Shown in pieces: positions 1 through 17,271 of a stretch of 64,000 nt of DNA. The first letter of the stretch is position 1, and each line of letters begins with the position of its first letter. The stretch covers positions 5,001 through 69,000 of the forward strand of contig NC_060022.1 of NCBI RefSeq assembly GCF_021134715.1, in the 5' to 3' direction. This stretch comes from Daphnia pulex (lineage: Eukaryota; Arthropoda; Branchiopoda; Diplostraca; Daphniidae). The notes beneath the pieces were generated by a model. It made no database searches. It was not told the origin of the DNA and saw nothing but the letters and a program-made list of their open reading frames with translations. The translations under genes and the position numbers were made by a program.

Positions 1-214
1 AACCTAACCTAACCTAACCTAACCTAACCTAACCTAACCTAACCTAACCTAACCTAACCTAACCTAACCTAACCTAACCTAACCTAACCTAACCTAACCT
101 AACCTAACCTAACCTAACCTAACCTAACCTAACCTAACCTAACCTAACCTAACCTAACCTAACCTAACCTAACCTAACCTAACCTAACCTAACCTAACCT
201 AACCTAACCTAACC
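1..214. repeat. Telomere repeat tract (AACCT)n
   Basis: Forty-two uninterrupted AACCT units followed by a partial AACC. AACCT read inward from the sequence end is the C-rich strand of TTAGG, the ancestral arthropod telomere repeat maintained by telomerase. No variant units are visible, and the tract passes directly into satellite DNA without spacer. This marks the left end of the window as a real chromosome terminus; the tract is probably truncated by the assembly. Confidence 0.97.
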
Positions 215-3200
215 ATCAAAATCGCGTTTAGTTCCAACACTTGCCACTTGGTGGCGCTGCTTTCCAGACTTACTAAAAATGCTCAGAAACAGGCAATCGA
301 GGATATATTCTTGATCAGCGTTTCACGCTGAGCACGATGAGATCAAAATCGGGTTTAGTTCCAGCACTTGCCACTTGGTGGCGCTGCTTTCCAGACTTAC
401 TAAAAATGCTCAGAAACAGGCAATCGAGGATATATTCTTGATCAGCGTTTCACGCTGAGCACGATGAGATCAAAATCGGGTTTAGTTCCAACACTTGCCA
501 CTTGGTGGCGCTGCTTTCCAGACTTACTAAAAATGCTCAGAAACAGGCAATCGAGGATATATTCTTGATCAGCGTTTCACGCTGAGCACGATGAGATCAA
601 AATCGGGTTTAGTTCCAACACTTGCCACTTGGTGGCGCTGCTTTCCAGACTTACTAAAAATGCTCAGAAACAGGCAATCGAGGATATATTCTTGATCAGC
701 GTTTCACGCTGAGCACGATGAGATCAAAATCGGGTTTAGTTCCAACACTTGCCACTTGGTGGCGCTGCTTTCCAGACTTACTAAAAATGCTCAGAAACAG
801 GCAATCGAGGATATATTCTTGATCAGCGTTTCACGCTGAGCACGATGAGATCAAAATCGGGTTTAGTTCCAGCACTTGCCACTTGGTGGCGCTGCTTTCC
901 AGACTTACTAAAAATGCTCAGAAACAGGCAATCGAGGATATATTCTTGATCAGCGTTTCACGCTGAGCACGATGAGATCAAAATCGGGTTTAGTTCCAAC
1001 ACTTGCCACTTGGTGGCGCTGCTTTCCAGACTTACTAAAAATGCTCAGAAACAGGCAATCGAGGATATATTCTTGATCAGCGTTTCACGCTGAGCACGAT
1101 GAGATCAAAATCGGGTTTAGTTCCAACACTTGCCACTTGGTGGCGCTGCTTTCCAGACTTACTAAAAATGCTCAGAAACAGGCAATCGAGGATATATTCT
1201 TGATCAGCGTTTCACGCTGAGCACGATGAGATCAAAATCGGGTTTAGTTCCAACACTTGCCACTTGGTGGCGCTGCTTTCCAGACTTACTAAAAATGCTC
1301 AGAAACAGGCAATCGAGGATATATTCTTGATCAGCGTTTCACGCTGAGCACGATGAGATCAAAATCGGGTTTAGTTCCAACACTTGCCACTTGGTGGCGC
1401 TGCTTTCCAGACTTACTAAAAATGCTCAGAAACAGGCAATCGAGGATATATTCTTGATCAGCGTTTCACGCTGAGCACGATGAGATCAAAATCGCGTTTA
1501 GTTCCAACACTTGCCACTTGGTGGCGCTGCTTTCCAGACTTACTAAAAATGCTCAGAAACAGGCAATCGAGGATATATTCTTGATCAGCGTTTCACGCTG
1601 AGCACGATGAGATCAAAATCGCGTTTAGTTCCAACACTTGCCACTTGGTGGCGCTGCTTTCCAGACTTACTAAAAATGCTCAGAAACAGGCAATCGAGGA
1701 TATATTCTTGATCAGCGTTTCACGCTGAGCACGATGAGATCAAAATCGCGTTTAGTTCCAACACTTGCCACTTGGTGGCGCTGCTTTCCAGACTTACTAA
1801 AAATGCTCAGAAACAGGCAATCGAGGATATATTCTTGATCAGCGTTTCACGCTGAGCACGATGAGATCAAAATCGCGTTTAGTTCCAACACTTGCCACTT
1901 GGTGGCGCTGCTTTCCAGACTTACTAAAAATGCTCAGAAACAGGCAATCGAGGATATATTCTTGATCAGCGTTTCACGCTGAGCACGATGAGATCAAAAT
2001 CGCGTTTAGTTCCAACACTTGCCACTTGGTGGCGCTGCTTTCCAGACTTACTAAAAATGCTCAGAAACAGGCAATCGAGGATATATTCTTGATCAGCGTT
2101 TCACGCTGAGCACGATGAGATCAAAATCGCGTTTAGTTCCAACACTTGCCACTTGGTGGCGCTGCTTTCCAGACTTACTAAAAATGCTCAGAAACAGGCA
2201 ATCGAGGATATATTCTTGATCAGCGTTTCACGCTGAGCACGATGAGATCAAAATCGCGTTTAGTTCCAACACTTGCCACTTGGTGGCGCTGCTTTCCAGA
2301 CTTACTAAAAATGCTCAGAAACAGGCAATCGAGGATATATTCTTGATCAGCGTTTCACGCTGAGCACGATGAGATCAAAATCGCGTTTAGTTCCAACACT
2401 TGCCACTTGGTGGCGCTGCTTTCCAGACTTACTAAAAATGCTCAGAAACAGGCAATCGAGGATATATTCTTGATCAGCGTTTCACGCTGAGCACGATGAG
2501 ATCAAAATCGCGTTTAGTTCCAACACTTGCCACTTGGTGGCGCTGCTTTCCAGACTTACTAAAAATGCTCAGAAACAGGCAATCGAGGATATATTCTTGA
2601 TCAGCGTTTCACGCTGAGCACGATGAGATCAAAATCGCGTTTAGTTCCAACACTTGCCACTTGGTGGCGCTGCTTTCCAGACTTACTTAAAATGCTCAGA
2701 AACAGGCAATCGAGGATATATTCTTGATCAGCGTTTCACGCTGAGCACGATGAGATCAAAATCGCGTTTAGTTCCAACACTTGCCACTTGGTGGCGCTGC
2801 TTTCCAGACTTACTTAAAATGCTCAGAAACAGGCAATCGAGGATATATTCTTGATCAGCGTTTCACGCTGAGCACGATGAGATCAAAATCGCGTTTAGTT
2901 CCAACACTTGCCACTTGGTGGCGCTGCTTTCCAGACTTACTAAAAATGCTCAGAAACAGGCAATCGAGGATATATTCTTGATCAGCGTTTCACGCTGAGC
3001 ACGATGAGATCAAAATCGCGTTTAGTTCCAACACTTGCCACTTGGTGGCGCTGCTTTCCAGACTTACTAAAAATGCTCAGAAACAGGCAATCGAGGATAT
3101 ATTCTTGATCAGCGTTTCACGCTGAGCACGATGAGATCAAAATCGCGTTTAGTTCCAACACTTGCCACTTGGTGGCGCTGCTTTCCAGACTTACTAAAAA

Positions 3201-6200
3201 TGCTCAGAAACAGGCAATCGAGGATATATTCTTGATCAGCGTTTCACGCTGAGCACGATGAGATCAAAATCGCGTTTAGTTCCAACACTTGCCACTTGGT
3301 GGCGCTGCTTTCCAGACTTACTAAAAATGCTCAGAAACAGGCAATCGAGGATATATTCTTGATCAGCGTTTCACGCTGAGCACGATGAGATCAAAATCGC
3401 GTTTAGTTCCAACACTTGCCACTTGGTGGCGCTGCTTTCCAGACTTACTAAAAATGCTCAGAAACAGGCAATCGAGGATATATTCTTGATCAGCGTTTCA
3501 CGCTGAGCACGATGAGATCAAAATCGCGTTTAGTTCCAACACTTGCCACTTGGTGGCGCTGCTTTCCAGACTTACTAAAAATGCTCAGAAACAGGCAATC
3601 GAGGATATATTCTTGATCAGCGTTTCACGCTGAGCACGATGAGATCAAAATCGCGTTTAGTTCCAACACTTGCCACTTGGTGGCGCTGCTTTCCAGACTT
3701 ACTTAAAATGCTCAGAAACAGGCAATCGAGGATATATTCTTGATCAGCGTTTCACGCTGAGCACGATGAGATCAAAATCGCGTTTAGTTCCAACACTTGC
3801 CACTTGGTGGCGCTGCTTTCCAGACTTACTAAAAATGCTCAGAAACAGGCAATCGAGGATATATTCTTGATCAGCGTTTCACGCTGAGCACGATGAGATC
3901 AAAATCGCGTTTAGTTCCAACACTTGCCACTTGGTGGCGCTGCTTTCCAGACTTACTAAAAATGCTCAGAAACAGGCAATCGAGGATATATTCTTGATCA
4001 GCGTTTCACGCTGAGCACGATGAGATCAAAATCGCGTTTAGTTCCAACACTTGCCACTTGGTGGCGCTGCTTTCCAGACTTACTAAAAATGCTCAGAAAC
4101 AGGCAATCGAGGATATATTCTTGATCAGCGTTTCACGCTGAGCACGATGAGATCAAAATCGCGTTTAGTTCCAACACTTGCCACTTGGTGGCGCTGCTTT
4201 CCAGACTTACTAAAAATGCTCAGAAACAGGCAATCGAGGATATATTCTTGATCAGCGTTTCACGCTGAGCACGATGAGATCAAAATCGCGTTTAGTTCCA
4301 ACACTTGCCACTTGGTGGCGCTGCTTTCCAGACTTACTAAAAATGCTCAGAAACAGGCAATCGAGGATATATTCTTGATCAGCGTTTCACGCTGAGCACG
4401 ATGAGATCAAAATCGCGTTTAGTTCCAACACTTGCCACTTGGTGGCGCTGCTTTCCAGACTTACTAAAAATGCTCAGAAACAGGCAATCGAGGATATATT
4501 CTTGATCAGCGTTTCACGCTGAGCACGATGAGATCAAAATCGGGTTTAGTTCCAACACTTGCCACTTGGTGGCGCTGCTTTCCAGACTTACTAAAAATGC
4601 TCAGAAACAGGCAATCGAGGATATATTCTTGATCAGCGTTTCACGCTGAGCACGATGAGATCAAAATCGGGTTTAGTTCCAACACTTGCCACTTGGTGGC
4701 GCTGCTTTCCAGACTTACTAAAAATGCTCAGAAACAGGCAATCGAGGATATATTCTTGATCAGCGTTTCACGCTGAGCACGATGAGATCAAAATCGGGTT
4801 TAGTTCCAGCACTTGCCACTTGGTGGCGCTGCTTTCCAGACTTACTAAAAATGCTCAGAAACAGGCAATCGAGGATATATTCTTGATCAGCGTTTCACGC
4901 TGAGCACGATGAGATCAAAATCGGGTTTAGTTCCAACACTTGCCACTTGGTGGCGCTGCTTTCCAGACTTACTAAAAATGCTCAGAAACAGGCAATCGAG
5001 GATATATTCTTGATCAGCGTTTCACGCTGAGCACGATGAGATCAAAATCGCGTTTAGTTCCAACACTTGCCACTTGGTGGCGCTGCTTTCCAGACTTACT
5101 AAAAATGCTCAGAAACAGGCAATCGAGGATATATTCTTGATCAGCGTTTCACGCTGAGCACGATGAGATCAAAATCGCGTTTAGTTCCAACACTTGCCAC
5201 TTGGTGGCGCTGCTTTCCAGACTTACTAAAAATGCTCAGAAACAGGCAATCGAGGATATATTCTTGATCAGCGTTTCACGCTGAGCACGATGAGATCAAA
5301 ATCGCGTTTAGTTCCAACACTTGCCACTTGGTGGCGCTGCTTTCCAGACTTACTAAAAATGCTCAGAAACAGGCAATCGAGGATATATTCTTGATCAGCG
5401 TTTCACGCTGAGCACGATGAGATCAAAATCGCGTTTAGTTCCAACACTTGCCACTTGGTGGCGCTGCTTTCCAGACTTACTAAAAATGCTCAGAAACAGG
5501 CAATCGAGGATATATTCTTGATCAGCGTTTCACGCTGAGCACGATGAGATCAAAATCGCGTTTAGTTCCAACACTTGCCACTTGGTGGCGCTGCTTTCCA
5601 GACTTACTAAAAATGCTCAGAAACAGGCAATCGAGGATATATTCTTGATCAGCGTTTCACGCTGAGCACGATGAGATCAAAATCGGGTTTAGTTCCAACA
5701 CTTGCCACTTGGTGGCGCTGCTTTCCAGACTTACTAAAAATGCTCAGAAACAGGCAATCGAGGATATATTCTTGATCAGCGTTTCACGCTGAGCACGATG
5801 AGATCAAAATCGGGTTTAGTTCCAACACTTGCCACTTGGTGGCGCTGCTTTCCAGACTTACTAAAAATGCTCAGAAACAGGCAATCGAGGATATATTCTT
5901 GATCAGCGTTTCACGCTGAGCACGATGAGATCAAAATCGGGTTTAGTTCCAGCACTTGCCACTTGGTGGCGCTGCTTTCCAGACTTACTAAAAATGCTCA
6001 GAAACAGGCAATCGAGGATATATTCTTGATCAGCGTTTCACGCTGAGCACGATGAGATCAAAATCGGGTTTAGTTCCAACACTTGCCACTTGGTGGCGCT
6101 GCTTTCCAGACTTACTAAAAATGCTCAGAAACAGGCAATCGAGGATATATTCTTGATCAGCGTTTCACGCTGAGCACGATGAGATCAAAATCGGGTTTAG

Positions 6201-8440
6201 TTCCAACACTTGCCACTTGGTGGCGCTGCTTTCCAGACTTACTAAAAATGCTCAGAAACAGGCAATCGAGGATATATTCTTGATCAGCGTTTCACGCTGA
6301 GCACGATGAGATCAAAATCGGGTTTAGTTCCAGCACTTGCCACTTGGTGGCGCTGCTTTCCAGACTTACTAAAAATGCTCAGAAACAGGCAATCGAGGAT
6401 ATATTCTTGATCAGCGTTTCACGCTGAGCACGATGAGATCAAAATCGGGTTTAGTTCCAACACTTGCCACTTGGTGGCGCTGCTTTCCAGACTTACTAAA
6501 AATGCTCAGAAACAGGCAATCGAGGATATATTCTTGATCAGCGTTTCACGCTGAGCACGATGAGATCAAAATCGGGTTTAGTTCCAACACTTGCCACTTG
6601 GTGGCGCTGCTTTCCAGACTTACTAAAAATGCTCAGAAACAGGCAATCGAGGATATATTCTTGATCAGCGTTTCACGCTGAGCACGATGAGATCAAAATC
6701 GGGTTTAGTTCCAACACTTGCCACTTGGTGGCGCTGCTTTCCAGACTTACTAAAAATGCTCAGAAACAGGCAATCGAGGATATATTCTTGATCAGCGTTT
6801 CACGCTGAGCACGATGAGATCAAAATCGGGTTTAGTTCCAACACTTGCCACTTGGTGGCGCTGCTTTCCAGACTTACTAAAAATGCTCAGAAACAGGCAA
6901 TCGAGGATATATTCTTGATCAGCGTTTCACGCTGAGCACGATGAGATCAAAATCGGGTTTAGTTCCAACACTTGCCACTTGGTGGCGCTGCTTTCCAGAC
7001 TTACTAAAAATGCTCAGAAACAGGCAATCGAGGATATATTCTTGATCAGCGTTTCACGCTGAGCACGATGAGATCAAAATCGGGTTTAGTTCCAACACTT
7101 GCCACTTGGTGGCGCTGCTTTCCAGACTTACTAAAAATGCTCAGAAACAGGCAATCGAGGATATATTCTTGATCAGCGTTTCACGCTGAGCACGATGAGA
7201 TCAAAATCGGGTTTAGTTCCAACACTTGCCACTTGGTGGCGCTGCTTTCCAGACTTACTAAAAATGCTCAGAAACAGGCAATCGAGGATATATTCTTGAT
7301 CAGCGTTTCACGCTGAGCACGATGAGATCAAAATCGGGTTTAGTTCCAACACTTGCCACTTGGTGGCGCTGCTTTCCAGACTTACTAAAAATGCTCAGAA
7401 ACAGGCAATCGAGGATATATTCTTGATCAGCGTTTCACGCTGAGCACGATGAGATCAAAATCGCGTTTAGTTCCAACACTTGCCACTTGGTGGCGCTGCT
7501 TTCCAGACTTACTAAAAATGCTCAGAAACAGGCAATCGAGGATATATTCTTGATCAGCGTTTCACGCTGAGCACGATGAGATCAAAATCGCGTTTAGTTC
7601 CAACACTTGCCACTTGGTGGCGCTGCTTTCCAGACTTACTAAAAATGCTCAGAAACAGGCAATCGAGGATATATTCTTGATCAGCGTTTCACGCTGAGCA
7701 CGATGAGATCAAAATCGCGTTTAGTTCCAACACTTGCCACTTGGTGGCGCTGCTTTCCAGACTTACTAAAAATGCTCAGAAACAGGCAATCGAGGATATA
7801 TTCTTGATCAGCGTTTCACGCTGAGCACGATGAGATCAAAATCGCGTTTAGTTCCAACACTTGCCACTTGGTGGCGCTGCTTTCCAGACTTACTAAAAAT
7901 GCTCAGAAACAGGCAATCGAGGATATATTCTTGATCAGCGTTTCACGCTGAGCACGATGAGATCAAAATCGCGTTTAGTTCCAACACTTGCCACTTGGTG
8001 GCGCTGCTTTCCAGACTTACTAAAAATGCTCAGAAACAGGCAATCGAGGATATATTCTTGATCAGCGTTTCACGCTGAGCACGATGAGATCAAAATCGCG
8101 TTTAGTTCCAACACTTGCCACTTGGTGGCGCTGCTTTCCAGACTTACTAAAAATGCTCAGAAACAGGCAATCGAGGATATATTCTTGATCAGCGTTTCAC
8201 GCTGAGCACGATGAGATCAAAATCGCGTTTAGTTCCAACACTTGCCACTTGGTGGCGCTGCTTTCCAGACTTACTAAAAATGCTCAGAAACAGGCAATCG
8301 AGGATATATTCTTGATCAGCGTTTCACGCTGAGCACGATGAGATCAAAATCGCGTTTAGTTCCAACACTTGCCACTTGGTGGCGCTGCTTTCCAGACTTA
8401 CTAAAAATGCTCAGAAACAGGCAATCGAGGATATATTCTT
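215..8440. repeat. Subtelomeric satellite 1, 127-bp unit, about 65 copies
   Basis: Head-to-tail array with an exact 127-bp period (64.8 copies) and very few variants: ATCGCG versus ATCGGG, CCAACAC versus CCAGCAC, and TACTAAAA versus TACTTAAA. Each unit carries TTGGTGGCGCTGC (CTCF-like core with one mismatch) and a small hairpin, TCAGCG-TTTCA-CGCTGA. Short ORFs of 66 codons arise across unit boundaries in three places only because of the TACTTAAA variant and are not genes. Variants occur in blocks, which points to recent block amplification or gene conversion. The array ends inside a unit at a shared ATATTCTTG sequence where satellite 2 begins. Confidence 0.97.
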
Positions 8441-11400
8441 GATATTCTTGTTCCTCGTGTCAAGACGCATCTTTTAAGTGTATTTTGGTAAGATTCTGAT
8501 TTACTTTAATTTTGACAATAGATGGCGCTGACGTCGATTGTTTAAATTGAGTTTTAAAGCACTTCTACTGGTCGGATAACTTTTTAAACCCGATATTCTT
8601 GTTCCTCGTGTCAAGACGCATCTTTTAAGTGTATTTTGGTAAGATTCTGATTTACTTTAATTTTGACAATAGATGGCGCTGACGTCGAATGTTTAAATTG
8701 AGTTTTAAAGCACTTCTACTGGTTGGATAATTTTTTAAAACCGATATTCTTGTTCCTCGTGTCAAGACGCATCTTTTAAGTGTATTTTGGTAAGATTCTG
8801 ATTTACTTTAATTTTGACAATAGATGGCGCTGACGTCGAATGTTTAAATTGAGTTTTAAAGCACTTCTACTGGTTGGATAATTTTTTAAAACCGATATTC
8901 TTGTTCCTCGTGTCAAGACGCATATTTTAAGTGTATTTTGGTAAGATTCTGATTTACTTTAATTTTGACAATAGATGGCGCTGACGTCGAATGTTTAAAT
9001 TGAGTTTTAAAGCACTTCTACTGGTCGGATAATTTTTTAAACCCGATATTCTTGTTCCTCGTGTCAAGACGCATCTTTTAAGTGTATTTTGGTAAGATTC
9101 TGATTTACTTTAATTTTGACAATAGATGGCGCTGACGTCGAATGTTTAAATTGAGTTTTAAAGCACTTCTACTGGTTGGATAATTTTTTAAAACCGATAT
9201 TCTTGTTCCTCGTGTCAAGACGCATCTTTTAAGTGTATTTTGGTAAGATTCTGATTTACTTTAATTTTGACAATAGATGGCGCTGACGTCGAATGTTTAA
9301 ATTGAGTTTTAAAGCACTTCTACTGGTCGGATAATTTTTTAAACCCGATATTCTTGTTCCTCGTGTCAAGACGCATCTTTTAAATGTATTTTAGTAAGAT
9401 TCTGATTTACTTTAATTTTGACAATAGATGGCGCTGACGTCGAATGTTTAAATTGAGTTTTAAAGCACTTCTACTGGTCGGATAATTTTTTAAACCCGAT
9501 ATTCTTGTTCCTCGTGTCAAGACGCATCTTTTAAATGTATTTTAGTAAGATTCTGATTTACTTTAATTTTGACAATAGATGGCGCTGACGTCGAATGTTT
9601 AAATTGAGTTTTAAAGCACTTCTACTGGTTGGATAATTTTTTAAAACCGATATTCTTGTTCCTCGTGTCAAGACGCATCTTTTAAGTGTATTTTGGTAAG
9701 ATTCTGATTTACTTTAATTTTGACAATAGATGGCGCTGACGTCGAATGTTTAAATTGAGTTTTAAAGCACTTCTACTGGTCGGATAATTTTTTAAACCCG
9801 ATATTCTTGTTCCTCGTGTCAAGACGCATCTTTTAAATGTATTTTAGTAAGATTCTGATTTACTTTAATTTTGACAATAGATGGCGCTGACGTCGAATGT
9901 TTAAATTGAGTTTTAAAGCACTTCTACTGGTCGGATGATTTTTTAAACCCGATATTCTTGTTCCTCGTGTCAAGACGCATCTTTTAAGTGTATTTCGGTA
10001 AGATTCTGATTTACTTTAATTTTGACAATAGATGGCGCTGACGTCGAATGTTTAAATTGAGTTTTAAAGCACTTCTACTGGTTGGATAATTTTTAAAAAC
10101 CGATATTCTTGTTCCTCGTGTCAAGACGCATCTTTTAAGTGTATTTTGGTAAGATTCTGATTTACTTTAATTTTGACAATAGACGGCGCTGACGTCGGAT
10201 GTTTAAATTGAGTTTTAAAGCACTTCTACTGGTCGGATAATTTTTTAAACCCGATATTCTTGTTCCTCGTGTCAAGACGCATCTTTTAAGTGTATTTTAG
10301 TAAGATTTTGATTTACTTTAATTTTGAACAATAGATGGCGCTGACGTCGAATGTTTAAATTGAGTTTTAAAGCACTTCTACTGGTTGGATAATTTTTTAA
10401 AATCGATATTCTTGTTCCTCGTGTCAAGACGCATCTTTTAAGTGTATTTTGGTAAGATTCTGATTTACTTTAATTTTGACAATAGATGGCGCTGACGTCG
10501 AATGTTTAAATTGAGTTTTAAAGCACTTCTACTGGTTGGATAATTTTTTAAAACCGATATTCTTGTTCCTCGTGTCAAGACGCATCTTTTAAGTGTATTT
10601 TAGTAAGATTCTGAGCTTCTTTAATTTTGACAATAGATGGCGCTGACGTCGATTGTTTAAATTGAGTTTTAAAGCACTTCTACTGGTCGGATAACTTTTT
10701 AAACCCGATATTCTTGTTCCTCGTGTCAAGACGCATCTTTTAAGTGTATTTTGGTAAGATTCTGATTTACTTTAATTTTGACAATAGATGGCGCTGACGT
10801 CGAATGTTTAAATTGAGTTTTAAAGCACTTCTACTGGTTGGATAATTTTTTAAAACCGATATTCTTGTTCCTCGTGTCAAGACGCATCTTTTAAGTGTAT
10901 TTTGGTAAGATTCTGATTTACTTTAATTTTGACAATAGATGGCGCTGACGTCGAATGTTTAAATTGAGTTTTAAAGCACTTCTACTGGTCGGATAATTTT
11001 TTAAACCCGATATTCTTGTTCCTCGTGTCAAGACGCATCTTTTAAGTGTATTTTGGTAAGATTCTGATTTACTTTAATTTTGACAATAGATGGCGCTGAC
11101 GTCGAATGTTTAAATTGAGTTTTAAAGCACTTCTACTGGTTGGATAATTTTTTAAAACCGATATTCTTGTTCCTCGTGTCAAGACGCATCTTTTAAGTGT
11201 ATTTTGGTAAGATTCTGATTTACTTTAATTTTGACAATAGATGGCGCTGACGTCGAATGTTTAAATTGAGTTTTAAAGCACTTCTACTGGTTGGATAATT
11301 TTTTAAAACCGATATTCTTGTTCCTCGTGTCAAGACGTATCTTTTAAGTGTATTTTGGTAAGATTCTGGTTTACTTTAATTTTGACAATAGATGGCGCTG

Positions 11401-12742
11401 ACGTCGAATGTTTAAATTGAGTTTTAAAGCACTTCTACTGGTTGGATAATTTTTTTAAACCGATATTCTTGTTCCTCGTGTCAAGACGCATCTTTTAACT
11501 GTATTATAGTAAGATTCTGAGCTACTTTAATTTTGACAATAGATGGCGCTGACGTCGAATGTTTAAATTGAGTTTTAAAGCACTTCTACTGGTCGGATAA
11601 TTTTTTAAACCCGATATTCTTGTTCCTCGTGTCAAGACGCATCTTTTAAATGTATTTTAGTAAGATTCTGATTTACTTTAATTTTGACAATAGATGGCGC
11701 TGACGTCGAATGTTTAAATTGAGTTTTAAAGCACTTCTACTGGTCGGATGATTTTTTAAACCCGATATTCTTGTTCCTCGTGTCAAGACGCATCTTTTAA
11801 GTGTATTTCGGTAAGATTCTGATTTACTTTAATTTTGACAATAGATGGCGCTGACGTCGAATGTTTAAATTGAGTTTTAAAGCACTTCTACTGGTTGGAT
11901 AATTTTTAAAAACCGATATTCTTGTTCCTCGTGTCAAGACGCATCTTTTAAGTGTATTTTGGTAAGATTCTGATTTACTTTAATTTTGACAATAGATGGC
12001 GCTGACGTCGGATGTTTAAATTGAGTTTTAAAGCACTTCTACTGGTCGGATAATTTTTTAAACCCGATATTCTTGTTCCTCGTGTCAAGACGCATCTTTT
12101 AAGTGTATTTTAGTAAGATTTTGATTTACTTTAATTTTGAACAATAGATGGCGCTGACGTCGAATGTTTAAATTGAGTTTTAAAGCACTTCTACTGGTTG
12201 GATAATTTTTTAAAATCGATATTCTTGTTCCTCGTGTCAAGACGCATCTTTTAAGTGTATTTTGGTAAGATTCTGATTTACTTTAATTTTGACAATAGAT
12301 GGCGCTGACGTCGAATGTTTAAATTGAGTTTTAAAGCACTTCTACTGGTTGGATAATTTTTTAAAACCGATATTCTTGTTCCTCGTGTCAAGACGCATCT
12401 TTTAACTGTATTTTAATAAGATTCTGAGCTACTTAATTTTGACAATAGATGGCGCTGACGTCGGATGTTTAAATTGAGTTTTAAAGCACTTCTACTGGTC
12501 GGATAATTTTTTAAACCCGATATTCTTGTTCCTCGTGTCAAGACGCATCTTTTAAATGTATTTTAGTAAGATTCTGATTTACTTTAATTTTGACAATAGA
12601 TGGCGCTGACGTCGAATGTTTAAATTGAGTTTTAAAGCACTTCTACTGGTCGGATAATTTTTTAAACCCGATATTCTTGTTCCTCGTGCCAAGACGCATC
12701 TTTTAAGTGTATTTTAGTAAGATTTTGAGCTACTTTAATTTT
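8441..12742. repeat. Subtelomeric satellite 2, 151-bp unit, about 28 copies
   Basis: Head-to-tail array; unit starts at 8441, 8592, 8743 and 8894 fix the period at 151 bp. Units share GATATTCTTGTTCCTCGTG and TAGATGGCGCTGACGTCG; the latter is a full match to a Drosophila-type CTCF core (YAGRKGGCGC) followed by a TGACGT half-site like that of CREB/ATF factors. Divergence between units is higher than in satellite 1, and a 12-unit higher-order duplication is visible (displacement 1,813 bp). Apart from GGCGCTG and ATATTCTTG it has no obvious similarity to satellite 1. The last unit decays at about 12742 into AT-rich unique sequence. Confidence 0.96.
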
Positions 12743-12970: not shown

Positions 12971-13169
12971 GTAGTTCTACTGTCGGCATTCTAATAATTT
13001 TTTTAATTGTTTGAGTTCTATTGTCGGACTTTTGAAATATTTAAAATTCAATTCATTCATCTCCAGTCCATTCGTTAAAAATTTGAATGGAGTTCTATTG
13101 TCGGACATGAAAACAATTTAACAAATTATTGGAGTTCTATTGTCGGGCACTGGAGTTCTATTGTCGGGG
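12971..13169 (+). repeat. Cluster of the 16-17 bp motif GGAGTTCTAYTGTCGG
   Basis: Five direct copies in 200 bp with irregular spacing (42, 75, 42 and 21 bp), all on the plus strand. A related copy lies 12 kb away at 25271-25291 (TGGAGTTCTACTGACTGTCGG). Irregular spacing distinguishes it from a tandem satellite. Function unknown; a protein-binding site cluster and the remains of a repeat family are both possible. Confidence 0.7.
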
Positions 13170-13269
13170 ATTTTTAATAATATTTATAAAAGGAGTTTTG
13201 ATGTCTTTGGAGTTTGGAGTTGTACTACTGTCGTTCGTCGTGGGGAAACTGTCGGTTGTAAGCCTATCA

Positions 13270-13304
13270 CTAGGTGGCTCAAATTAATGTCCACCAGGTG
13301 GCGG
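13270..13304 (+). promoter_or_regulatory. Pair of CTCF-like core motifs (left of FERM pseudogene)
   Basis: CTAGGTGGC at 13270 and CCACCAGGTGGCGG at 13291, same strand, about 24 bp apart. Both fit the YAGRKGGC core bound by CTCF in Drosophila and vertebrates. Binding is inferred only from the motif. Confidence 0.4.
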
Positions 13305-13320
13305 TGTGCCCATTCGTGAG

Positions 13321-14847: not shown

Positions 14848-16616
14848 GCACACAATTTGGTGCTTTGCTTCCGGGTCAAGTTCTACCCGCCGGATCCGAT
14901 GCGATTTCAAGAAGCCACTCGCTACCTATTGTACCTGCAGTTGAAACGGGACCTCCAGCACGGGCGACTCTACAGTCCCGGCCCGGGTCACGACTTGGCA
15001 TTTCTCGCTGCTCTCTGCCTTCAGGGTATTTCTTTCTTTTCTTAGTTTAAAACGATATGTACTTTTTTATTTTAAAACATTTTTTTTTGTGATAAAAACA
15101 GAGGAATTGGGTGACTACGATCCTGAACGCCATCTCCCCGGCTACGTCTCTGAAATGAATTTGGTGCTAAACGCCTAAACCAGTCGGAGAAACTGGAAAA
15201 TCAGGTGAAAGAATTCCATTCGGGACGGGTCGGCGCACTGGTCGGCATTTCCGCCTCGCAGGCCGTCAACGCCTTTCTCAAAAAAGCCGCAAGACTCGAC
15301 ACTTATGGCGTCGATCTTCACCCAGTCAGAGTGAAAAACATTTCACATTTTACTATTCATTTTCGCATTTCTAATCCATTCAATGAATATAAACAGGATC
15401 CAAGAGGAGTTCGGCTCTACATCGGGACGAATCACAGCGGAGTGGCCACCTTCTACAACGGACGTCGGACTCGCCACTTTCGCTGGATCGACATCTCCAA
15501 GCTCAACTACGAAGGCAAAATGTTAATCATCCATCTCATCATCATTGAGGTATTCATTCATTATTATTTGCACTTGAAATTTTATCATAACTCATTTCTT
15601 CATTTTCAATTTGGATTCCAAAAGGATGCCAGAACTAAGGTAACATATTATTGATCCATTTCAATTTTAATTCAGGTCTGAAAAATGTCTTAAAATATTT
15701 TCCCTCAATTGGAATAATAAAATAAAACAGAAGAAACACACGGTGGGATTCAAATGCACCACTTCGTCGGCCTGTCGCCATTTGTGGCGCTACTCGGTGG
15801 AACAGCGCATCTTTTTCACGTTCACGTCGTCGGCGGAAATTCCAGCTGTCGTCACGGGCGGCAGTTTTCTTCTCGTGCGGATCCAAAGTTCGTTATTCCG
15901 GTCGGGTGGAACGCGAGCTGGCCCTGGAGGAGGTGGCCCTGCTGGCCGCAGCGGCCGCCGCCTCCATCCAGCAACACCCAGACGGAGGAGGAGGAGGTGG
16001 CCTCTGAGCCAATCCGCGGCGACGACGACGACTACGATGACGACTGTGACGAGGAGGCGACGGACGACTTTTCCTTCGATCGCCACCGTTCCGCCGAACG
16101 CAACACTCCCAATGGATCGAGGCGGAGTAGAAATCACGACGACTCGTTGCCAAGGCAACGCCATCACCCTCACGATCAAGACGGATTGTCTGCTACAACA
16201 CGAAACCACTAAATAAATTTTTAGAAATTCTTTTTTAATTCAATTTTAAAAACTAGTTGGACCGGAAGGACACGATAGTTACGAGGCGTCGTCGTGCGGG
16301 AGCGGAGCCAGTCAGGATGACCGCTCGGATGTGGCCAGTTGGGTGGCGCTGGACCTGCGGGGATTGCCCCGCCACAACCTGCAACACCAACAACAGCTGC
16401 ACCACCCACAACAGCAGCATCAACGGCTACGACACGCTGATGAACGACTCGGATTTCTACGGCTACGCCGGCAGCACGACGGGCAGCACGGCCGCCGATC
16501 CGTCCAACAACAGCTGGTCCCTCCATCCCTCCGACACTCAGGATCCTCATCACTGGAAACGCAGACGCAAAGCTGAAATCAAAATTCGGCTTCAACTTGA
16601 ATGTTATGGATGTTAA
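14848..16616 (+). pseudogene. Decayed FERM-domain protein gene (FRMD / EPB41L4-like)
   Basis: Several exons encode an unmistakable FERM (band 4.1) domain, the module that ties membrane proteins to the cortical cytoskeleton. Visible blocks: RVKFYPPDP and [17 protein letters not shown] (14870-15026), ELGDYDPERHLPGYVSE (15104-15160), LDTYGVDLHPV (15290-15330), LYIGTNHSGV and KLNYEGKM (15396-15549), KKHTVGFKC and CRHLWRYSVEQRIFF (15730-15830). Introns of about 65-90 nt with GT/AG ends separate them. Breaks: an 8-bp insertion/partial duplication near 15173-15180 puts a stop after MNLVLNA; an extra T in the T-run near 15864 shifts frame before RYSGRVEREL; a stop follows at about 16004; the Gln/His-rich 3' exon (16257-16616) switches frame again. 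No N-terminal FERM F1 lobe was found. It is likely a truncated subtelomeric copy, although consensus errors could mimic some lesions. Confidence 0.7.
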
Positions 16617-16769
16617 GGTAATTATTTTCGAAAAGCTGGATAATTTTTATTTACATTAAACTTGCCTTCCAACATTTTATTCAACGCCTCGTGGATACAA
16701 TAATAGAAAAAACTTAACTGGTGCAATTTAATGACGAAATTTAGGGAAAAAACGGAGAGTTGATCGTCG

Positions 16770-16804
16770 CCAGATGGCGTTGAAAATATATCCACCAGGT
16801 GGCC
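16770..16804 (+). promoter_or_regulatory. Pair of CTCF-like core motifs (right of FERM pseudogene)
   Basis: CCAGATGGCG at 16770 and CCACCAGGTGGCC at 16792, same strand and with nearly the same spacing as the pair at 13270-13304. The two pairs bracket the FERM fragment. Confidence 0.4.
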
Positions 16805-17271
16805 TTCTTGAATTCAATGCTGTCATTTGATTTCCGAGACGTTGAATTTGCAACGACAGTTAGAGACTTGTGTATATAATGACGTTCGTTTTCTGCAAAG
16901 GACGAATGTGCTCTGTGTTAAGGTACTCTTCTTTCTGTTTAAGGTTACATTTCTCGATCGTGACATAGTTAATCCTTGATGCATATAGGTGAAATCCTGC
17001 CTACTGTTTCGAGAACATCAAGTTGAGCCATCATTACGTGGTCACATACCCATTGGGATCTAAGACGCTTACTACCAGAATACTCCACTACCATTATTCC
17101 TTTCAGGTCTCTATTCTTCACTAAGCTCTCCAGTTTTGGTTATTAGATTTACTCAGATAATTCATCTTAACTTATCGTTTTGAGAAATTTAAGCACTCAC
17201 TTTTCTATTCAATACTTAACATTTTACTGATTATATATACATGTCAATGCATTACATTTCTTTCATGTCTT

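Follow-up and report, generated by a model that had tools for sequence, protein, structure and literature searches.

Layout of the chromosome end

The window (the whole stretch of DNA that was analyzed, 64,000 nucleotides from Daphnia pulex) begins with 42.8 copies of the telomere repeat (AACCT)n on the plus strand, at positions 1 to 214. According to TRF, this is followed on the same strand by satellite 1, a 127-bp unit present in 64.8 copies (positions 215 to 8443), and by satellite 2, a 151-bp unit present in 28.5 copies (positions 8441 to 12742). Matrix scans identified one CTCF-like site per unit of satellite 1, the 19-mer TTGCCACTTGGTGGCGCTG (first at 241 to 259, last at 8369 to 8387), and 28 CTCF-like sites in satellite 2, the 15-mer ACAATAGATGGCGCT (first at 8515, last at 12593), all on the plus strand. 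The satellite-1 core TTGGTGGCGCTGC is found 65 times on the plus strand and 0 times on the minus strand, and the satellite-2 core TAGATGGCGCTGACGTCG 27 times and 0 times, respectively. The 28th core of satellite 2, TAGACGGCGCT (positions 10176 to 10190, plus strand; fly score 10.4), is the only altered one. An earlier note on this DNA had claimed one core per 127 bp in about 65 copies, one core per 151 bp in about 28 copies, and thus some 90 same-strand candidate sites in 12.5 kb, and these counts are borne out by the 65 and 28 plus-strand cores and by the TRF copy numbers. Among 64 satellite-1 units in the window, only 4 are distinct.

Just inside the arrays, two CTCF-like sites lie 24 bp apart on the plus strand (positions 13264 to 13306). 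The second, TGTCCACCAGGTGGCGGTG (13288 to 13306), reaches 24.9 of 29.3 bits and is the one outstanding site of the window outside the arrays when scanned with the human matrix; the first is weaker. A second plus-strand pair, 25 bp apart (positions 16764 to 16807), scores 12.9 and 13.8 bits, and a same-strand pair resembling those of the window (24 to 25 bp) was also observed at one fetched locus elsewhere in the genome (L111). Positions 13079 to 13214, just inside satellite 2, belong to a dispersed repeat that occurs many times in the genome. An open frame on the plus strand at 15154 to 15651 encodes a FERM C-terminal domain (PF09380, E 4.9e-7) and is perhaps the first gene inside the arrays.

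The repeated motif and its candidate reader

The units were scored with the CTCF matrices of human (MA0139.1) and fly (MA0531.1), which may not represent the preference of Daphnia CTCF. With the human matrix, the best scores are 19.7 of 29.3 bits for satellite 1 (p 1.5e-7) and 15.3 to 15.8 of 29.3 bits for satellite 2 (p about 2e-6); with the fly matrix they are 18.3 and 18.2 of 23.7 bits. When single units were shuffled with their dinucleotides preserved, 0 of 5,000 (satellite 1) and 1 of 5,000 (satellite 2) shuffles matched the human score, and 0 of 5,000 matched the fly score for either satellite. Column-permuted human matrices matched the scores in 0 and 2 of 3,000 cases for satellites 1 and 2, with 0 matching both together, and column-permuted fly matrices in 0 and 0 of 3,000. 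Both satellites therefore score highly with these matrices and above composition-matched controls, and the comparison with shuffled units proposed in the earlier note comes out in favor of the real units. The motif is a real and specific sequence feature, a predicted CTCF site, for which CTCF is a good candidate reader.

Whether this arthropod has CTCF at all had also been raised as a point to be checked. A CTCF orthologue is present at C12:6177420, with 68% identity (E 9.9e-66) to the human fingers, the next best match showing 42%. Fingers 5 to 7, in the usual numbering, keep the helix stretches TSGELVRH, SKLKRH, and KLKRH, and finger 4 differs from its human counterpart at several helix positions. 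A single CTCF gene in D. pulex is also described in the literature (PMC2889900).

A 136-bp form and the kinship of the satellites

The D. pulex assembly (133,188,837 bases in 13 contigs) was searched for related units. A 22-mer around the core of a third, 136-bp form has 634 + 558 = 1,192 exact copies in the genome, and a 23-mer of the 127-bp form has 359 + 246; the reversed-pattern controls gave 0 in both cases, and positions were taken from the first 100 matches listed for each. The 136-bp unit makes up most of the first 10 kb of C5, of an inner part of the C10 left end, and of an internal stretch of C12. Its site, TTGCCACCAGGTGGCGCTG, scores 26.2 of 29.3 bits with the human matrix (p 3e-10) and 21.7 bits with the fly matrix (p 7e-9). 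At one place in the site, the 136-bp unit reads CCACCAGG and the 127-bp unit CCACTTGG; the latter presents a T instead of the A strongly favored by CTCF and scores about 6.5 bits lower. Bodies of the 127-bp type in the internal C12 array carry CCACCAGG, and the weak 127-bp form is therefore probably the derived one. Within 136-bp arrays, at least 21 spacings between neighboring sites are 32 bp, reflecting a second copy of just the site.

The 127- and 136-bp units align along their length with a score of 215 (best of 500 shuffles, 37), and still with 159 (28 in shuffles) when the core is masked. A chimeric unit on C12 (L032) joins the two forms; it was not counted as proof of kinship. The 151-bp unit shares with the 136-bp unit a collinear ungapped block outside the core, with 29 of 43 and 37 of 60 identities, each reached by 0 of 1,000 shuffles; the 43-base window was picked after two shared words had been seen on one diagonal, and the 60-base window was not so picked. 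A 30-base window with 19 of 30 identities was reached by 61 of 1,000 shuffles and is not significant, and when satellite 2 and the 136-bp unit were aligned locally with gaps, only a 12-base word was recovered, reached by 5 to 6 of 500 shuffles. Direct comparison of satellite 2 with satellite 1 gave a weak or nonsignificant result, as 27, 90, and 182 of 1,000 shuffles were as good with windows of 30, 43, and 60 bases, respectively. The longest word common to the two satellites is ATATTCTTG (9 bases), versus TGGCGCTG (8 bases).

These alignments overturn the view of the earlier note that the satellites are unrelated, as both are linked through the 136-bp form, closely in the case of satellite 1 and distantly in that of satellite 2. 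Its statement that GGCGCTG is almost the only sequence they have in common likewise gives way to the longer shared word. Because the satellites are related, two independent origins of the motif were rejected, and the two motifs are most likely one inherited site rather than independent gains. The CTCF reading proposed in the note thus holds insofar as the motif beats shuffles and the gene is present, but the two satellites do not serve as independent witnesses for it. Judged from the alignments, the two arrays locally represent a single subtelomeric satellite family with 136-bp, 127-bp, and distant 151-bp forms. The long satellite-2 array is special to this chromosome end, as 28 of the 42 genome matches to a satellite-2 26-mer (at most 3 mismatches) are located in the window.

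The possibility that the motif is read by another DNA-binding protein, such as an E-box factor of the Snail/ZEB kind, YY1/Pho, E2F, or a reader of the palindrome GCCACC-A-GGTGGC, draws on the CAGGTG E-box and the exact palindrome within the 136-bp core, on the partial resemblance of the 151-bp core to YY1/Pho, and on the many other C2H2 zinc-finger matches in the genome (158 matches). However, in ten hand-picked sequences from units, borders, and flanks, the CTCF core never shows more than 1 mismatch, whereas the E-box, YY1/Pho, E2F, and palindrome motifs need up to 2, 4, 3, and 6 mismatches in the same ten, a comparison that leans toward CTCF because most of the ten were found by the CTCF scan. 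Each of the four other readings fits some unit types but not all, and we regard a reader other than CTCF as improbable.

Orientation of the arrays at chromosome ends

Arrays of the family adjoin or lie near the telomere repeat at several ends and were found at 14 of 24 ends (C1R, C2L, C2R, C3R, C5L, C6L, C7L, C7R, C8R, C9L, C9R, C10L, C10R, and C12L), where "end" is used loosely, since at C2R and C8R the distance between the contig end and the inner edge of the array is about 122 kb and about 78 kb, respectively. Spot checks of the other 10 ends (the first 10 kb of five left ends and the last 600 bases of five right ends, with one or two additional 301-base pieces from each of the 10) revealed no array. 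Such checks can miss arrays, since C12L has none in its first 10 kb, yet its array border lies at 24.7 kb.

In array stretches chosen by hand at the 14 ends, all 350 of the 350 sites scoring at least 15 bits face the chromosome interior and 0 face the telomere. Weak echoes of about 10 bits occur on the opposite strand in 136-bp arrays because the 136-bp core is nearly palindromic. At nine other ends, the core TCAAATAGGTGGCGCC is present at the inner border of the array beside 151-type sequence, and it points inward in 9 of 9 cases. The comparison with other chromosome ends that the earlier note had suggested thus yields more than 1,000 near-perfect 136-bp copies, directed inward wherever they were placed, and it strengthens the CTCF reading. 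The shared orientation may reflect common descent of the chromosome ends rather than 14 independent events.

The internal C12 array near 8.2 Mb has 70 sites, and in the parts read each of them lies on the plus strand. In this region (C12:8192000-8205500), units of 136 and 127 bp are mixed, and a short TTAGG stretch is present outside the border; the array is possibly a relic of a former chromosome end.

Three other types of end repeat, with units of 328 bp and 496 bp and of the CACGCC type, lack the site, their best scores being 6.2, 5.1, and 10.3 bits, respectively. The 328-bp satellite adjoins the telomere at the left ends of C2, C9, and C10. At the C2 left end (positions 1 to 10000), nearly every 328-bp unit includes a short block that resembles the telomere repeat but is oriented the other way (29 matches in 10 kb). 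The right contig ends of C4 and C11 carry the short CACGCC-type repeat without telomere repeat or CTCF-like satellite.

These layouts bear on the idea that the sites serve mainly to drive telomere-repeat RNA from the arrays, by analogy with human subtelomeric CTCF sites, which promote TERRA (PMC5727389). Satellite 1 does abut the telomere in the window. At the left ends of C9 and C10, however, about 8.6 kb of telomere repeat is followed by the 328-bp satellite, which has no site, and the CTCF-like array has its inner border about 40 kb (C9) and 52 kb (C10) in, the sites at 136-bp steps on C10 beginning at 17.8 kb or before. The likeness to human telomeric-RNA promoters is one of position, and we consider such a main role highly improbable.

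CTCF-like sites elsewhere in the genome

In 153,961 hand-picked non-satellite bases, the human matrix found 21 sites of at least 12 bits versus 4.4 in shuffles, and 6 sites of at least 15 bits versus 0.8. A genome-wide search with a vertebrate CTCF 14-mer pattern also gave an excess, 30 matches versus 1 and 29 versus 3 in controls, but one 14-mer accounts for 27 of the 30 and 27 of the 29. All 20 of the 20 fetched CCAGCAGAGGGCGC sites (out of 27 places in the genome) share their flanks at about 99 to 100% identity and belong to one dispersed repeat, near-identical copies of which, each with its CTCF-like site, lie on most chromosomes (L052-L071). A second genome-wide pattern gave 230 matches versus 14 and includes satellite units on C10. 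Among its first 20 non-CACCAG places, which were fetched, 11 of 20 CASYAGATGGCGC sites lie in one repeat family; of the other 9, 3 were assigned by eye to another family and 6 are without a partner. The genome-wide excess was accordingly rejected as proof of the preference of Daphnia CTCF, as it stems largely from dispersed repeats and satellite units. The second dispersed repeat occurs in two subtypes and carries CACTAGATGGCGC (L093, L097-L100, L103, L104, L106, L107, L109, and L110). Several CACCAGATGGCGC sites form facing pairs about 1.65 kb apart, for example, C4:1868142 (plus) and C4:1869789 (minus), as if they lay within the inverted ends of a mobile element.

Conservation of the core

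Units were collected with the core masked, so that loss of the core would not hide a unit; the locus overlapping the window (L018) was left out, and units covering less than 65% of the reference were excluded from the haplotype counts (166 to 155, 201 to 185, and 54 to 42). Of 141 windows compared in the 151-bp family, none varies less than the 11-bp core (rank 1), which shows 0.0097 changes per position per haplotype versus 0.064 elsewhere. For the 136-bp arrays, the corresponding rank is 30 of 126 windows, and for the 127-bp arrays it is 56 of 117, which is no clear signal of conservation in a comparison of low power, since these arrays are homogenized.

These results are relevant to the possibility that the satellite originated in the amplification of some sequence, perhaps a mobile element, in which a CTCF-like site was present by chance; homogenization would then have copied the site without any role at chromosome ends, whether or not CTCF is bound. 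Such sites do exist in at least two dispersed repeats of this genome, as seen with CCAGCAGAGGGCGC (20 of 20) and CASYAGATGGCGC (11 of 20 fetched); the core shows no excess conservation in the 127- and 136-bp arrays; and the 127-bp arrays have spread a change that weakens the site. On the other hand, the core is retained in the 151-bp family and in the border units despite divergence of the remaining sequence, and some units duplicate the site alone. We regard passive amplification as a serious but doubtful explanation.

Discussion

Our results establish that many ends of D. pulex chromosomes harbor a satellite family with a CTCF-like motif in its unit, directed inward wherever it was read at the ends, and that the genome encodes CTCF. 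The explanation that we favor, at close to an even chance, is a single satellite family whose unit is built around a CTCF site, with CTCF binding at least the 136-bp and border units and the arrays acting as a boundary of the chromosome end. We infer CTCF binding, the boundary role, and the either/or chromatin state described below from sequence features. The binding would take place in vivo, and the arrays, with all sites facing inward, would form a chromatin boundary between the chromosome end and the interior.

The nucleosome core comprises 147 bp. A unit of 127 to 136 bp is shorter than this, and CTCF on every unit and canonical nucleosomes would therefore be mutually exclusive. This raises the possibility that an array is either bound by CTCF and open or packed into nucleosomes and silent. 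In vertebrates, a CTCF motif facing inward stops loop extruders that come from the interior; if this rule holds in crustaceans, the inward motifs would do the same here. In a further and rather unlikely elaboration, inward arrays of tens to hundreds of predicted CTCF sites would bracket the ends as an all-or-none barrier to both loop extrusion and silencing, outnumbering the other strong sites of the genome, a proportion that rests on one strong site in 153,961 bases.

Titles in the open-licence literature on Daphnia satellites, telomeres, and CTCF and on arthropod subtelomeric CTCF pointed to no description of such a satellite. If our explanation is correct, this would be a satellite outside the centromere whose repeating unit is a protein-binding site. 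Under the rather unlikely all-or-none model, it would join human CTCF/TERRA and fly Mod(mdg4)/TAS-R as a third case of insulator proteins at subtelomeric repeats, with the site built into the unit. For human TERRA starts, CTCF sites number a few per end, whereas here there are tens to hundreds, one per satellite unit.

In Drosophila, the subtelomeric tandem repeats TAS-R are bound in tandem by the insulator protein Mod(mdg4)-N and block enhancers, and the authors of that work regard the cause of this convergence on insulator proteins at subtelomeres as an open question (PMC9723646). The protein is a different one, fly telomeres consist of retrotransposons whereas those of D. pulex consist of AACCT repeats, and binding is demonstrated in the fly and predicted here. 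A near-perfect CTCF site in each unit at many ends would make the question of convergence testable in a small animal.

The D4Z4 macrosatellite of the human 4q subtelomere is likewise arranged in tandem; it contains a CTCF site and insulates in a CTCF-dependent manner, and CTCF binding is lost as copies are added (PMC2639723). This cautions that long arrays may be silent and bound at their edges only. The D4Z4 unit is 3.3 kb, in contrast to 127 to 151 bp in D. pulex, where the family is present at 14 of 24 ends. The DXZ4 macrosatellite is bound by CTCF in one chromatin state and is heterochromatic in the other (PMC3491370); it is X-linked, has a large unit, and is not subtelomeric.
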